From contig JAEKNW010000286.1 of assembly GCA_016838885.1 (NCBI GenBank), positions 1-36,779 of the forward strand: DNA of 36,779 bases, written 5' to 3'. The translations under genes and the position numbers were made by a program. Positions 1 through 36,779 of this stretch are shown piece by piece. Position 1 is the first letter of the stretch. Every line of letters starts with the position of its first letter. This stretch comes from Candidatus Cloacimonadota bacterium. GTDB lineage: Bacteria; Cloacimonadota; Cloacimonadia; Cloacimonadales; JAFGVF01. The notes below the pieces were generated by a model. It made no database searches, was not told where the DNA came from, and saw only the letters and a list, made by a program, of their open reading frames with translations.

Positions 1-500
1 AAAAAGCCTGTAAAATCTGGCGACAAGGGTGGCCCCAGTCCATATTCCCCTGCTTCAGCTAGCAGGAGATTGATAGCTTGGTTAGATTCTGGCAATAGGC
101 GGCATGGAGTGGAAGCGTCCCGCTTCCACAACCAAGCTTGAAAAGCTTGTAAAATCTGGCGGCAAGATGCCCTCAGTCCATATCCCCTGCTTCAGCTAGC
201 AGGAGATTGACACTCTGGTTAGATTCTGGCAATAGGTGGGCATGGAGTGGAAGCACCCTTGCTTCCACAACAGGCTTTAAAAAGCCTGTAAAATCTGGCG
301 GCAAGATGCCCCCAGTCCATATCCCCTTGCTTGAGCTAGCAGGAGATTGACACTCTGGTTAGATTCTGGCAATAGGTGGCATGGAGTGGAAGCACCCCTG
401 CTTCCACAACAGGCTTTAAAAAGCCTGTAAAATCTGGCGACAAGATGCCCCCAGTCCATATTCCCCTGCTTCAGCTAGCAGGAGATTAACAGCTTGCAAA
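1..500. repeat. 139-bp tandem repeat array, three full units plus a partial one
   Basis: The motif AAAAGCCTGT (AAAAGCTTGT in the second unit) recurs at 2, 141, 280 and 419, an exact 139-bp spacing. The fourth unit breaks off near 490, and the array may extend past the left edge. Each unit holds three short inverted repeats: CCTGCT/AGCAGG with a 6-nt loop, GTGGAAGC/GCTTCCAC with a loop of about 6 nt, and, at unit junctions, CAGGCTTT/AAAGCCTG with a 2-nt loop. The units differ by scattered substitutions and 1-nt indels. The array is visibly richer in G+C than the rest of the window. It has no conserved open frame and no variable spacers, so it is not a CRISPR. Function unknown. Confidence 0.93.
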
Positions 501-520
501 AGAATATAGTGCTATTCTCT
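494..520. repeat. Short dispersed repeat, left copy
   Basis: The sequence from TTGCAAAAG to GCTATTCTCT directly follows the 139-bp array and recurs, with one T-to-C change, at 36752-36777 on the same strand. It contains AGAATA/TATTCT arms around a 6-nt loop. Read on the minus strand, the hairpin is followed by TTTT, so here it could double as a weak terminator for the response-regulator gene that ends at 544. Confidence 0.7.
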
Positions 521-543
521 AAAAATCTACTGCCTTATTTGGG

Positions 544-1374
544 TTAATCAGGTTGAATAATCCCTACGATATAGTTTCTTCCATTTGATTCGCTACTATT
601 CTCTTTTAGCATAATAATTTTGACAGGTAGGGGGCTTTGTTTTATAGTAATGATATGGAGAAAGATTGTTTCCAGAAAGGTAATATCTACTTTAATTTTT
701 TTGATACTTTCGATTAGTTTAGCTTGATCATCGGGTGCTACAATGGAAAGGAAGGAATCAAAATCATGAAAAGAGCTTGTTTCATAACCAAAGAAGTCAG
801 TAGATTTAGTATAGATATTGAACAAGGTATTTTTTAAATCAAGTCTGAAGTAGAAAGCGTTAAGAGAGTCGCTTATGGTAAGAAAATTATCTTCTCTGAT
901 TTGATATTTATTTCTCATGAGGGAAAGAGAATTCTTCAAGGATTGAATTGTTTCCAGATTTTTTTGTTTTTCTAAAAGTAGATGCTGTTGGATTATACTA
1001 CATTTGACGACATTGACTAAGGAATTGATATTGAATGGTTTTTCTAGGATGAAGTCAACATCAGCGTTTGAGAGTAATTCTTGATATTTTTTCATTTCAA
1101 TATAGGTAGTTGTCAGGACCTTTATGCTGTTAGGGGAGAAGGTAGTAGTAAGATTTAGAAATTCAAAGCCGGTAATATTGGGCATTTCGAATTCACAGGA
1201 GATTAGGGAGATGTTTTCTTTTTTGATTGATAGTTCTTCGATGATATTAAAAGCAGAGGTAGAATTGTCGAAGGCTAAAATCGTGAATTGATCTGGGAAA
1301 TAGTTTGAAATTACCATCTCAAGGGTATCAGCAAGAAAGGGTTTTTTATCTACAATGATTATGATATCAGACAT
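544..1374 (-). CDS. Atypical receiver-PAS response regulator lacking the phospho-acceptor Asp
   Basis: A 276-residue protein. Residues 1-125 have a CheY-like receiver pattern: a hydrophobic beta1 (IIIIVDKK), the 'EMPNITGFEF' loop after beta3, T88-T90 at the switch Thr/Ser position and the conserved Lys in 'EKP' (K112). The residue aligned to the phospho-acceptor Asp is Glu61 (codon GAA, forward 1192-1194), and only one residue of the usual acidic pair is kept (D9, then K10). A helical linker (about 125-165) leads to a PAS-like domain (about 165-276) with a 'VAPDD' turn. There is no DNA-binding or enzymatic output domain. The start codon lies within the last 8 nt of the kinase gene upstream, with AAGGAG in front, so the two are translationally coupled. 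It probably acts as a constitutive or protein-binding partner of that kinase; this is inferred. Confidence 0.82.
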   Translation of the reverse strand: MSDIIIIVDKKPFLADTLEMVISNYFPDQFTILAFDNSTSAFNIIEELSIKKENISLISCEFEMPNITGFEFLNLTTTFSPNSIKVLTTTYIEMKKYQELLSNADVDFILEKPFNINSLVNVVKCSIIQQHLLLEKQKNLETIQSLKNSLSLMRNKYQIREDNFLTISDSLNAFYFRLDLKNTLFNIYTKSTDFFGYETSSFHDFDSFLSIVAPDDQAKLIESIKKIKVDITFLETIFLHIITIKQSPLPVKIIMLKENSSESNGRNYIVGIIQPD

Positions 1375-4300
1375 CTTTTCTCTCCTTGTTTATGTAGATG
1401 GATACTGAAGTTCCTTTGGGGCTTGAATCAATTTCCAGACTAGCTTTATGATTATCTGCAATATGTTTAGCAATTACCAGTCCCAGTCCAATTCCCTTTC
1501 CAATCTTTTTGGTAGTATAGAAAGGCTCAAAAAGGTGGTCTTTAGTGTAATTATCCATACCAATGCCATTATCGGTAATTTTTAAGAGAACTTTGCTATC
1601 AAAATCCTTCAAGGATATGGTTATCTTCCCCTTTTCATCCTCATCAATAGCATCAATGGCGTTTTGCATAAGAGTAGAAAGCAAGATTACTAAGTCATCT
1701 GGATTGCAATAAATATCCATTTGATGAGGTAAGTTGACTTCTAAGTCAATTCTGCTATTGATTTGATATTTGAAATAGGAGAGAGTTTTTTTAATAAGCT
1801 TGATAAGATCACATCTTCCCATGACTTTTGGTTTGGAAGTTTCAACATATTTGCGGAGGGAGTAGGCAATTCGAGTGAGATTATCTAAATCAAAATTAAT
1901 ATTATGTTTGATTCTTACCAGGTTTTTAATAGTCATTAAAAAAGAGAGAATAGTCTCATTTTGAGGATGTGAAATGAGGGGTTTTATGGCCTTGAGGTTA
2001 GCTTGAAGTCCAATATTGACAATCAATTGTGATACTTTGCTGATAGTGGAAAACTCAATCTCTTCCATATTACGTAAAGAGGGAATGATTTCTGTAATTT
2101 TACTTAAACTGCTAGAATGGACCTGATTAGTCTGGGTGATAATTTGGTTTGTGATAGATACTAAAATGCTCATTTCCTCCTCGTTAAGAATGGGAATAAT
2201 AGCACTAAGAGTCTCTAGCATAATCTCGATTTCATTAACAAAGAGCTCATTAGATAGTTTCAAAACTGACAGAGGTTCATTAAATTCGTGGGAGATGCCG
2301 CGAATTAAGGTCTCGATTTCAGTCATTTTACTTTGTTGTACAAGTAAATCCAAATTTGCTTCGAGATATGATTTATCATAGGCTAGTCTTTTAATTTTTT
2401 CTTGTAAATCTTTTTTTTCTGACATTAATTTTTGATTTAAAGAGAAAATTTCTCTGTTGTAATCACTTTTTTGAACTTCTAATTTCTGTTTTAATTCAAT
2501 ATTTAGTCTTTTTAAGCGAATTTCATCGGTGATATCTTTAATGAATCCAAAAGCTGTAATTACATTTGGAACTCCATTTTGATTATATCTTTTACCTTTT
2601 ATTCTAACCCATTTCTTTTCATCATTTATTGTGATGAAGACTAATTCAGCAGAAATTAGAGGCTTATTGCCTGTTAAGAAGGATTTAATCTCTTTCAAAG
2701 AAGAACTGTTGTCTGGAAAATCTAAGTTTCTCAGAATATGGGTGAGTGAATAAGAGTAATCATTAACATTTTCATCAATTATAGATCCAAAATTTTTGCT
2801 AAAAGTTATAATATTGGTTGATTCTTGATAACTCCAGGCAGAATAGTAAGGTAAGCTAGAGAAAAAATCAGCCATTTTATCTGTAAGCAGAGTTTTATTA
2901 GTTTGTGAATTAGACATACACTGTTCATTTATGATGATAAGTTGGGATTGATTTTCATCTGTGGTGTGTCCTAAAGGGATCAGTTTGCAAGAAAATTCCT
3001 TCTGAAAATCCTCAGACCAGAATGTGATTGCTTGGCTTTTTTTCAATTTTTCTAGATTCTTTTCTTCTTTAACTGAGGAAAGGAAAACTTGATTAATAAA
3101 CTGGTCATGGCTTAGTTTCTCATGGGCAGAATAAGGAAGCTGGAGAATCAGATCAACTGTGGCTTGATTATACCATTCAATTTCCCACAAACTAGAAAGA
3201 CATATAATAACTTCATCAATTGATTTTAGAAGAAGTCGGTTCAGGTGATTAGTTTTATCAAAGCTTTCAGTTAAATGAATTTTCTCAGAAATATCTGATA
3301 GCACTTTGATTCTAAAGTCCGGAGATGCTACGTTTATATAGCGATAGATTTCTTCACCTCCCTCCTCAGTTTTTCTGGTAATAGTTGTATCAAGATTAGT
3401 ATTTCCTTCTTCTATAATTGCATGAAGGTCCAAAAGCTTTATTAACTTATCATAATTATTGGAGTTAACAAGATTTTTATTCTGGGTTATTCTATAAGAG
3501 AAATGAAGATTAAACTTTGAAGTTATGGTCGTTAGAAGTTTGTGAATTATCATGATTTCATTTTGAGATTGTTTTGCTTGATTATGGCTCTTAACTAACA
3601 GAATAAGCAGGTAAATTGTGGTACTGAATAAGATAATGAGGGCAAAAAGATAGTAGATAGGTCTAATTCTTCGAATTTTGATTTGACGAGTAAAACGATG
3701 TTTGGGTGGTAGTTTGTTTATGTTTAAATTGAAATCTTCTATAGCTACTCTATTAAAGTAGTAATCATTATTCATATAAATCACTGGGCTATATGATGAT
3801 CGAATCCTATTATTAATTAAATCAAAAAGAGTCTCCATGGCTAACTTGCCATACTTTTGGTAATCAACAACATATCCACCGATGAAGTTATGCTTGATGT
3901 GATGCTTATACGTTGTAAAAACTCTTAAATTCTGATTCTTGGTTAAATAATAGGCCAGGTCATTATCATTAATCCGATGAGGTTCATCACTAAAGACATA
4001 ATCGGATAGTAAGATAATTGTCTCTTCATCAATAGCATTGATATAATCACCATATTCAGGTAAATTCATATCAGGTATGAAAGAAACAGGCATTGCTGAA
4101 AAGTAACGTAAATTCTTAGTGATGAGCCTATAATTACAGTCTACAACCGGTGATGTGTTATTAGAGATAATTTTAATTTGCTTAGCAGTTGGAAACAAAT
4201 CCAGAGCTAAATCTAAGGTTGGTGCCACATTTATATCTTCATTTAAGCAGATGTAGTTAGTAAAAGTATGTGTAACATTTGTTACAAGATCTGCATTGGA

Positions 4301-4738: not shown

Positions 4739-4867
4739 CAAAAAATTATTTTATTTTTTCAGAGAATTAGAACAGAGAAAAGGAAGGAAAAAAAGTAATT
4801 AGGTATGTTTAATTATAATAATGTTTTAAATCAAGTATGTAAATATCGGAAGCAAACTTTTTTTATT

Positions 4868-4921
4868 TTTTTTTCAAAAACCGGGACAAATTTGAAAAAG
4901 TGGACCCTATATACTAATGAA
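4868..4921 (+). repeat. 54-nt dispersed element, copy 1
   Basis: From a run of seven T through ACCGGGACAAATTTG and GTGGACCCTATATAC to ATGAA, all 54 nt match the reverse complement of 34576-34629 exactly. The element lies in the divergent gap between the kinase operon and the NTF2-like gene, 122 nt before that gene's ATG. Copy 2 is 133 nt before the uvrB ATG, in the same orientation relative to its gene. The GGGAC and GGACCC ends of the core recall insertion-sequence termini, but no transposase is near. Function unknown. Confidence 0.85.
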
Positions 4922-4976
4922 GGGTAACAAAAAAGAGTTAGAAATTACTGATTTAACCAACATTCGGGTTTAAATC

Positions 4977-13810: not shown

Positions 13811-13835
13811 TTTATTACTCTTTATATCTTATAAT

Positions 13836-13912
13836 CTAAACTCTAAACTCTAAACCCTAAACTCTAAACCCTAAACTCTAAACTCTAAACCCTAAACTCT
13901 AAACCCTAAACT
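13836..13912. repeat. Heptanucleotide tandem array (CTAAACT/CTAAACC)
   Basis: Eleven uninterrupted 7-nt units read CTAAACT (T) or CTAAACC (C) in the order T,T,C,T,C,T,T,C,T,C,T. Units 1-5 and 6-10 are identical, so there is a perfect higher-order 35-bp duplication (13836-13870 and 13871-13905). The array lies between the start of the ttcA-like gene and the end of the M28 peptidase gene. It could serve as a spacer, a binding array or a slippage site upstream of ttcA; I see no gene in it. Confidence 0.95.
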
Positions 13913-32390: not shown

Positions 32391-32400
32391 GTTTTCTTAA

Positions 32401-32442
32401 CCTCAACCTCAACCTTGACCTTGACCTTGACCTTAACCTTAA
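32401..32442. repeat. Hexanucleotide tandem array between era and uvrB
   Basis: Seven uninterrupted 6-nt units: CCTCAA twice, CCTTGA three times, CCTTAA twice. The last unit (32437-32442) contains the uvrB stop codon (minus-strand TAA at 32439-32441). The array fills most of the gap between the convergent genes, where one would expect a bidirectional terminator; I see no strong hairpin there. Confidence 0.9.
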
Positions 32443-34575: not shown

Positions 34576-34629
34576 TTCATTAGTATATAGGGTCCACTTT
34601 TTCAAATTTGTCCCGGTTTTTGAAAAAAA
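34576..34629 (-). repeat. 54-nt dispersed element, copy 2
   Basis: This is an exact reverse-complement match of 4868-4921 over 54 nt, about 80 nt upstream of the uvrB promoter and in the same orientation relative to uvrB as copy 1 is to the NTF2-like gene. The sequence outside the element differs after GG on one side. The remainder of 34443-34808 holds the uvrB promoter and a terminator; no convincing gene is seen. Confidence 0.85.
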
Positions 34630-34728
34630 GTTTAAAAAATACCGAACGGTATGTTTACAAGTTACATCTATTTGATTAATATTTAGGTTAATAAATAACA
34701 TCAATAAAATTTATATCATATTTGAGAA

Positions 34729-36449: not shown

Positions 36450-36608
36450 AAATACAAAAATGGTGATTATTTCAAAAAGAGGATTTCAAGGGTGGAATTG
36501 AAATTTCAAATGAAAAGAGAAAAGAGAAAAATGAAAAATTGTGGTGAGGAAAAGAAATAGTATGCGAAATACTTTTCAACCCGAATGGTGCAGTAGAGCT
36601 TTAGTAAT

Positions 36609-36644
36609 ACTTCGCTAATACATTCTACATAGCTTTAGCGAAGT
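36609..36644. other. Inverted repeat in the right-hand intergenic region
   Basis: ACTTCGCTAA (36609-36618) and TTAGCGAAGT (36635-36644) form a perfect 10-bp inverted repeat with a 16-nt loop; a second, overlapping pair (TAGCTTT / AAAGCTA) could compete. The 36413-36779 region otherwise holds A/T-rich sequence, the possible promoter above and the terminal dispersed repeat; I see no gene. Confidence 0.5.
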
Positions 36645-36751
36645 AGAAAGCTACGTATCACAGGCGAAGAGTGCAGATTTTTTTAGCAAAATAACTTACA
36701 GAATTTGAAGGCATATAATATATATATTCCTGAAAATTATGGAAGTTACTT

Positions 36752-36777
36752 TTGCAAAAGAATATAGTGCTACTCTC
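36752..36777. repeat. Short dispersed repeat, right copy
   Basis: A 26-nt direct copy of the repeat at 494-519, with one T-to-C change inside the right arm of its small hairpin. It stops 2 nt before the window end, so a longer homology may continue outside. Confidence 0.7.
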
Positions 36778-36779
36778 AA

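Follow-up and report, generated by a model that had tools for sequence, protein, structure and literature searches.

What is a G+C-rich array of 139-bp units doing at the edge of an A+T-rich contig: is it a structured RNA, a protein-binding array or a repeat family of its own? The window, that is, the whole stretch of DNA analysed (36,779 bp), is the entire contig C286 of a Candidatus Cloacimonadota genome (3.34-Mb, 350 contigs). Tandem Repeats Finder (TRF) assigns to positions 1-491 a period of 139 bp with 3.5 copies and 90% matches, and a repeat search of the array places one 27-nt stretch at 1, 140, 279 and 418 (spacing 139, 139, 139). A preliminary sequence-only reading of this DNA had given the exact 139-bp spacing, which holds, and unit starts at 2, 141, 280 and 419, each one base further on than here. 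A longer stretch is spaced by 137 and 140 bp, small indels within units cancelling out, and TRF detects a half-unit similarity as well (period 68, 56% matches). The contig begins at window base 1, which truncates the array on its left side. The same reading was right about the base composition (50.5% G+C in the array vs ~29-38% per kb in the rest of the window) and about the lack of spacers, the units abutting directly. A hairpin scan (stem of at least 6, loop of 3-8) yields 9 perfect hairpins in window 1-500, vs a mean of 0.8 and a maximum of 4 in 200 order-1 Markov controls. The features of this end of the window are as follows.

1..491, + strand: tandem array of 3.5 units of 139 bp (units from 1, 140, 279, 418), cut on the left (TRF, repeat search)
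17..38, + strand: hairpin A of unit 1 (CTGGCGACAAGGGTGGCCCCAG), from the folds; equivalents at 156-176, 295-315 and 434-454
49..66, + strand: hairpin CCTGCTTCAGCTAGCAGG, part of long arm B (hairpin scan); again at 186-203 and 465-482, mutated in unit 3
109..129, + strand: hairpin C, GTGGAAGC-GTCCC-GCTTCCAC (hairpin scan, genome pattern); again at 247-268 and 386-407
131..150, + strand: junction palindrome P, version ACCAAGCTT-AAGCTTGT (hairpin scan, P stem comparison)
270..289, + strand: junction palindrome P, version ACAGGCTT-AAGCCTGT; also at 409-428
495..549, no strand assigned: right half of the MITE-like repeat M1 (...CTACTGCNTTATTTGGGTTAA), into which the array runs
544..1374, - strand: response-regulator gene (ORF, PF00072), whose 3' end points towards the array at a distance of 51 bp

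Several familiar kinds of array can be set aside directly. A protein-coding repeat is rejected because 139 is not a multiple of 3 and no frame is kept between units, in agreement with the initial description; in addition, no ORF of at least 100 aa is listed inside the array. A CRISPR array is excluded by the abutting units, which leave no unique spacers. Integron attC arrays have conserved GTTRRRY / RYYYAAC ends around cassettes; here there are no cassettes, and GTTAGAT is found in part of the 41 near-full units analysed, the others having GATACATT or GTTATGAAT.

Folded together with the palindromes on either side, a unit forms the P arms, hairpins A and C and a long arm B, and its predicted fold energy is below that of all 200 dinucleotide shuffles in all three folds run (z of -8.1 and -5.7 for the two RNA strands and of -7.2 for the + strand as DNA). 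Transcripts of either strand would form hairpins, as had been proposed. Of the three inverted repeats per unit originally described, one is the junction palindrome; the others are CCTGCTTCAGCTAGCAGG, which is mutated in unit 3, and GTGGAAGC-GCTTCCAC. A fourth, CTGGCGGC-GCCCCCAG, is present as well. Solitary copies elsewhere in the genome (e.g., L044 and L045) carry P at both ends, and their flanks are often other repeats, with no target-site duplication read there; units within arrays share one P with their neighbor.

The stems of these hairpins are preserved through substitution. P occurs in at least three versions, all of them paired (ACAGGCTT/AAGCCTGT, ACCAAGCTT/AAGCTTGGT and CAAGCC/GGCTTG), and at 26 distinct P sites the two arms of a site pair at 6.6 of 8 positions, vs 5.9 (sd 0.14) when arms are re-dealt, with 0 of 1000 re-deals as high. 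Within hairpin A, pair 8/18 of A2 switches between G-C and C-G among copies. The unit body was compared across the 41 near-full units, 37 of which could be trimmed cleanly; 31 entered the pair count and 6 with irregular ends or length were omitted. Its 24 pairs are standard in 96.8% of cells, vs 37-44% when the partners are slid by 1-3 columns, and 15 cells are changed on both sides, vs 4.6 in shuffles (0 of 500 as high). The number of double-change pairs and the number of pair types are not above those of shuffles (383 and 410 of 500 reach them), two-sided change being found in 2 of the 24 pairs, in 9 and 6 of the 31 units, while the other pairs hardly vary. Since most stem positions of the body are invariant, the covariation rests on these two pairs and P; it is real but narrow, and it could reflect a few inherited events or self-templated repair of palindromes.

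The repeat is dispersed widely through its own genome. A BLAST search with two units returned at least 75 matches on at least 35 of the 350 contigs; copy numbers are lower bounds, 40 of 63 candidates having been scored. The copies are singles or head-to-tail arrays, mostly at contig ends, and a directional pattern for hairpin C finds 69 sites vs 0 for the reversed control pattern. Inside arrays the matches run head to tail; the lone minus match within an array, overlapping with a plus unit at L033 9285-9444, is due to partial self-complementarity. Among the sequences examined there are 43 array sites, overlapped by short ORFs only. Neighboring genes were taken as open frames of at least 90 codons rather than as gene-caller output, and contig ends often remove one of them; among the ten arrays that do have genes on both sides, a small number, there is no preference for gene 3' ends. 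Unit direction agrees with that of the right-hand gene in 23 of 30 cases and with that of the left-hand gene in 14 of 23. The inspection of flanking genes suggested at the outset has yielded intergenic placement, without a consistent gene context.

Beyond this genome the repeat disappears. The search of a unit against related genomes and the covariance model over units that the sequence-only reading had proposed were both carried out: unit BLAST matched its own genome, 0 of 57 relatives and 0 of 123 other genomes of the phylum, and a covariance model of the unit body matched 0 of 120 other phylum genomes (Infernal, stricter filters). The directional pattern for hairpin C, with 67 sites in the own genome in this comparison, was found in 0 of 54 relatives, as was a pattern of hairpin A plus its neighbor, which occurs 38 times in the own genome. 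A 21-base core pattern had 0 matches both in the genomes of 84,980 named species and in viral contigs, sets from which the own genome or its nearest kin may be absent, and a plasmid search with the repeat gave no match; a plasmid or viral source is rejected on these zero counts. As far as sampled, and judging from sequence comparison with a set whose two nearest genomes belong to another genus, the repeat appears limited to this species. The literature searched, in which subscription journals are thinly covered, contains no description of a 139-bp repeat of this sort, so the repeat is apparently undescribed, yet familiar in kind. Of the options first offered, an undescribed repeat family is the one that fits dozens of copies here, none elsewhere among the genomes searched and no published report. 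It had also been argued that a unit found at a single location, with no compensatory substitutions, would speak against such a family; the unit is on at least 35 contigs and compensatory changes occur in both P and the body.

Units are joined to other hairpins. Flanking modules include R (ATCCC..GGGAT), S (a G+C-rich hairpin followed by GTCCGACAGAAGAGG), T and a CAGTGT..ACACTG hairpin, and their order recurs between sites, e.g., R-P-unit-P-S, with the general form R-P-(unit)n-P-S. The background for module densities was a sample of the window plus 60 regions (575,649 bases) taken by contig number, about every fifth, which included C286 as the window and passed over C221 and C251; 15 of the 60 regions drew an invalid-sequence warning from BLAST. 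In the 200 bp next to arrays, module S is ~31x denser than in this sample (0.87 vs 0.028 per kb), module R ~23x (0.87 vs 0.038 per kb, the two-strand count of R being halved) and module T ~40x (0.29 vs 0.007 per kb).

Intergenic palindromic copies in large number, mosaics of several hairpins, stem changes that keep pairing, tandem reiteration and frequent limitation to one species are all described for REP and BIME elements and their RAYT transposases, as far as the sections of the two sources used here extend (PMC3733652; PMC2817692). There are also differences: the unit here is 139 bp with four hairpins, whereas a REP is 20-40 bp; its copies are head to tail, which is rare for REPs, without alternating orientation of neighbors; and, unlike REPs, they are in no excess at gene 3' ends. 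According to the available portion of one source, one end of a REP hairpin is marked by an unpaired tag, either GTAG (or GTGG) or CGTC (PMC3733652). Examination by eye of 41 aligned units revealed no unpaired GTAG, GTGG or CGTC tag by hairpins A, C or P, the GTGG at hairpin C lying inside the stem, and because the tag is missing the repeat is not classed as a REP; by analogy, it would work like a BIME. BrickBuilt, a minisatellite within a MITE in Porphyromonas gingivalis, is likewise a spacer-free tandem repeat that is intergenic, multi-copy and narrow in host range, but in the parts of its description drawn on here it has a 23-nt unit and defined MITE ends (PMC4596501), in contrast to a hairpin-built 139-bp unit whose element ends are undefined; moreover, other arrays show no enrichment of M1, the MITE next to the array of the window. 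The STAR elements of Staphylococcus aureus are also G+C-rich intergenic direct repeats scattered genome-wide, but they are 14-bp direct repeats spaced by recurring sequence, and the portion of the source consulted includes no comparable hairpin unit (PMC3532100). On this comparison both would be looser parallels than REP/BIME.

This dispersed, intergenic repeat, joined into mosaics, with stem-preserving substitutions and greater likeness within arrays than between them, is probably a non-coding interspersed palindromic mosaic, REP/BIME-like, which spread non-autonomously and lengthened locally in this species as sampled. Each unit strings together hairpin A, the long arm B and hairpin C and is bounded by a P common to neighbors; units and modules R, S and T are joined between genes in recurring composites. 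The composites may have spread as non-autonomous DNA, and arrays would gain or lose length through recombination or replication slippage among units that are nearly identical. A benefit to the cell is not required by the data.

A possible mobilizer is a single-strand, hairpin-recognizing transposase of the IS200 type, whose own gene is flanked by R. The sole PF01797 gene of the genome (155 aa; locus L069:2022-3073, contig C151) encodes a protein that scores above the NCBIfam cut-off for IS200/IS605 (57.3 vs 55) and far below that for REP-transposase (26.4 vs 80). Inverted hairpin blocks (105 nt, 84%) lie on either side of the gene and include module R and ATCCCTgaaAGGGAT hairpins, an arrangement analogous to the layout of REP-transposase systems. 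The gene falls below the RAYT cut-off, however, and has the unit on neither side: R and Y are present in its flanks, whereas P, A, B and C are not. All 34 of 34 nt of a stretch of the flank block recur 17 bp downstream of the array in L033. Relatives of the transposase are present in 51 of 120 other phylum genomes (E 1e-20), and five homologous loci in other genera were inspected: L212 and L213 are flanked on both sides by hairpins of their own, different in sequence and with TTC or GAA loops, L211 has repeated but weaker elements, and L214 and L215 have repeats of another type. These comparisons suggest that transposase and flanking hairpins diverge together, two of the five loci combining different hairpins with the same TTC/GAA loop. 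Because the unit is absent at the transposase, mobilization in trans would have to be inferred. That the repeat represents a new class, in which a 139-bp multi-hairpin unit moves as folded single-stranded DNA through an IS200-type transposase acting in trans on the neighboring R and then grows head to tail at shared palindromes, is a speculative and unlikely extension. The repeat offers a natural system in which to ask whether hairpin modules near, but not identical to, transposase ends are carried along.

The absence of the unit from the transposase flanks would also suit a repeat that needs no mobilizing enzyme, an old sequence copied by gene conversion and varied as a by-product of recombination and slippage. 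Mosaic junctions inside units fall at short shared words such as CTGCTTC, and units are locally alike, body identity being 90% within arrays (23 pairs) vs 83% between arrays (797 pairs; 0 of 2000 permutations as high). Composites of the same order at different sites, however, are not easily seeded by conversion alone, and this explanation, though worth keeping in view, is rather doubtful.

The very stable folds of both strands, the pair-preserving changes in P and the body, and the agreement of unit direction with the right-hand gene (23 of 30 cases) could instead indicate that arrays are transcribed and that their hairpins function at the RNA level, e.g., as a leader, as a processing site or as an array of small RNAs. 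A strong fold is, however, predicted alike for DNA and for either RNA strand, and the ten two-sided arrays lie between five co-directional, four divergent and one convergent gene pairs; these mixed orientations imply no consistent transcript. Distances to genes vary from less than 30 to more than 1000 bp. Rfam models applied to window 1-1400 gave best scores of 20.1 of 54 and 16.7 of 41 bits, no family reaching its gathering score, which excludes a known Rfam RNA. The structured RNA array first envisaged is thus quite unlikely, and its divergent-gene sites and variable gene spacing count against it.

Hairpins that are G+C-rich and regularly phased, in a genome rich in A+T, would befit sites that bind gyrase, IHF-like or other chromosome proteins, by analogy with the BIMEs of E. 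coli, which bind gyrase and IHF according to the part of the source consulted (PMC2817692). Against such a role, no clear strand rule emerges (unit on the G-rich strand by GC skew at 25 of 38 loci, p 0.07, and at 17 of 24 strong-skew loci, p 0.06), and uneven array length and mosaic decay do not resemble a strictly phased site; a protein-binding array is improbable. An artefact of metagenome-bin assembly, which had been named as a possible refutation and to which the position of most copies at contig ends might point, is scarcely credible because ten arrays are internal to contigs and flanked by genes on either side, and units differ by ~17% between arrays.

The preferred reading, a palindromic mosaic spreading non-autonomously, extends REP/BIME-like elements to an uncultured lineage, in a form that lacks the usual tags and has long units arranged head to tail. 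Among marker comparisons, UvrB has its best relative in a Candidatus Cloacimonadota MAG (60% identity), with others close behind at 57-58%, and one neighboring gene matches that MAG record too; taken alone, this places the lineage only weakly in Cloacimonadota. Together with hundreds of MITE ends, the hairpin repeat may help to explain why the assembly is in 350 contigs. The MITE-like M1 has the terminal repeat TTTAACCCRAATNRTGCAGTAGANCTTT, a length of about 90-200 bp and many deletion forms; its terminal motif (at most 1 mismatch) has 553 matches in the genome vs 2 for a reversed control, and both ends of the window contig are in or beside M1 (495-549 and 36573-36779). A BrickBuilt-like arrangement, in which arrays generally lie inside M1, was dropped, M1 being about as dense near arrays as in the background (0.73 vs 0.59 per kb). 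Other repeats were encountered as well. Short tandem arrays of TCTAAAC and CTTAAC occur in the window at 13835-13912 and 32396-32442, and the dispersed repeat TATAGGGTCCACTTTTTCAAATTTGTCCCGGTTTTT has two inverted window copies (4858-4925 and 34576-34637). Elsewhere in the genome there are tandem units resembling TTGTTTAA or AACAATCA (L104, L107 and L085) and dispersed CACAAAGAACACAAA / CACGAATTAAAACGAATT repeats (L108, L119 and others), some of which adjoin hairpin mosaics.
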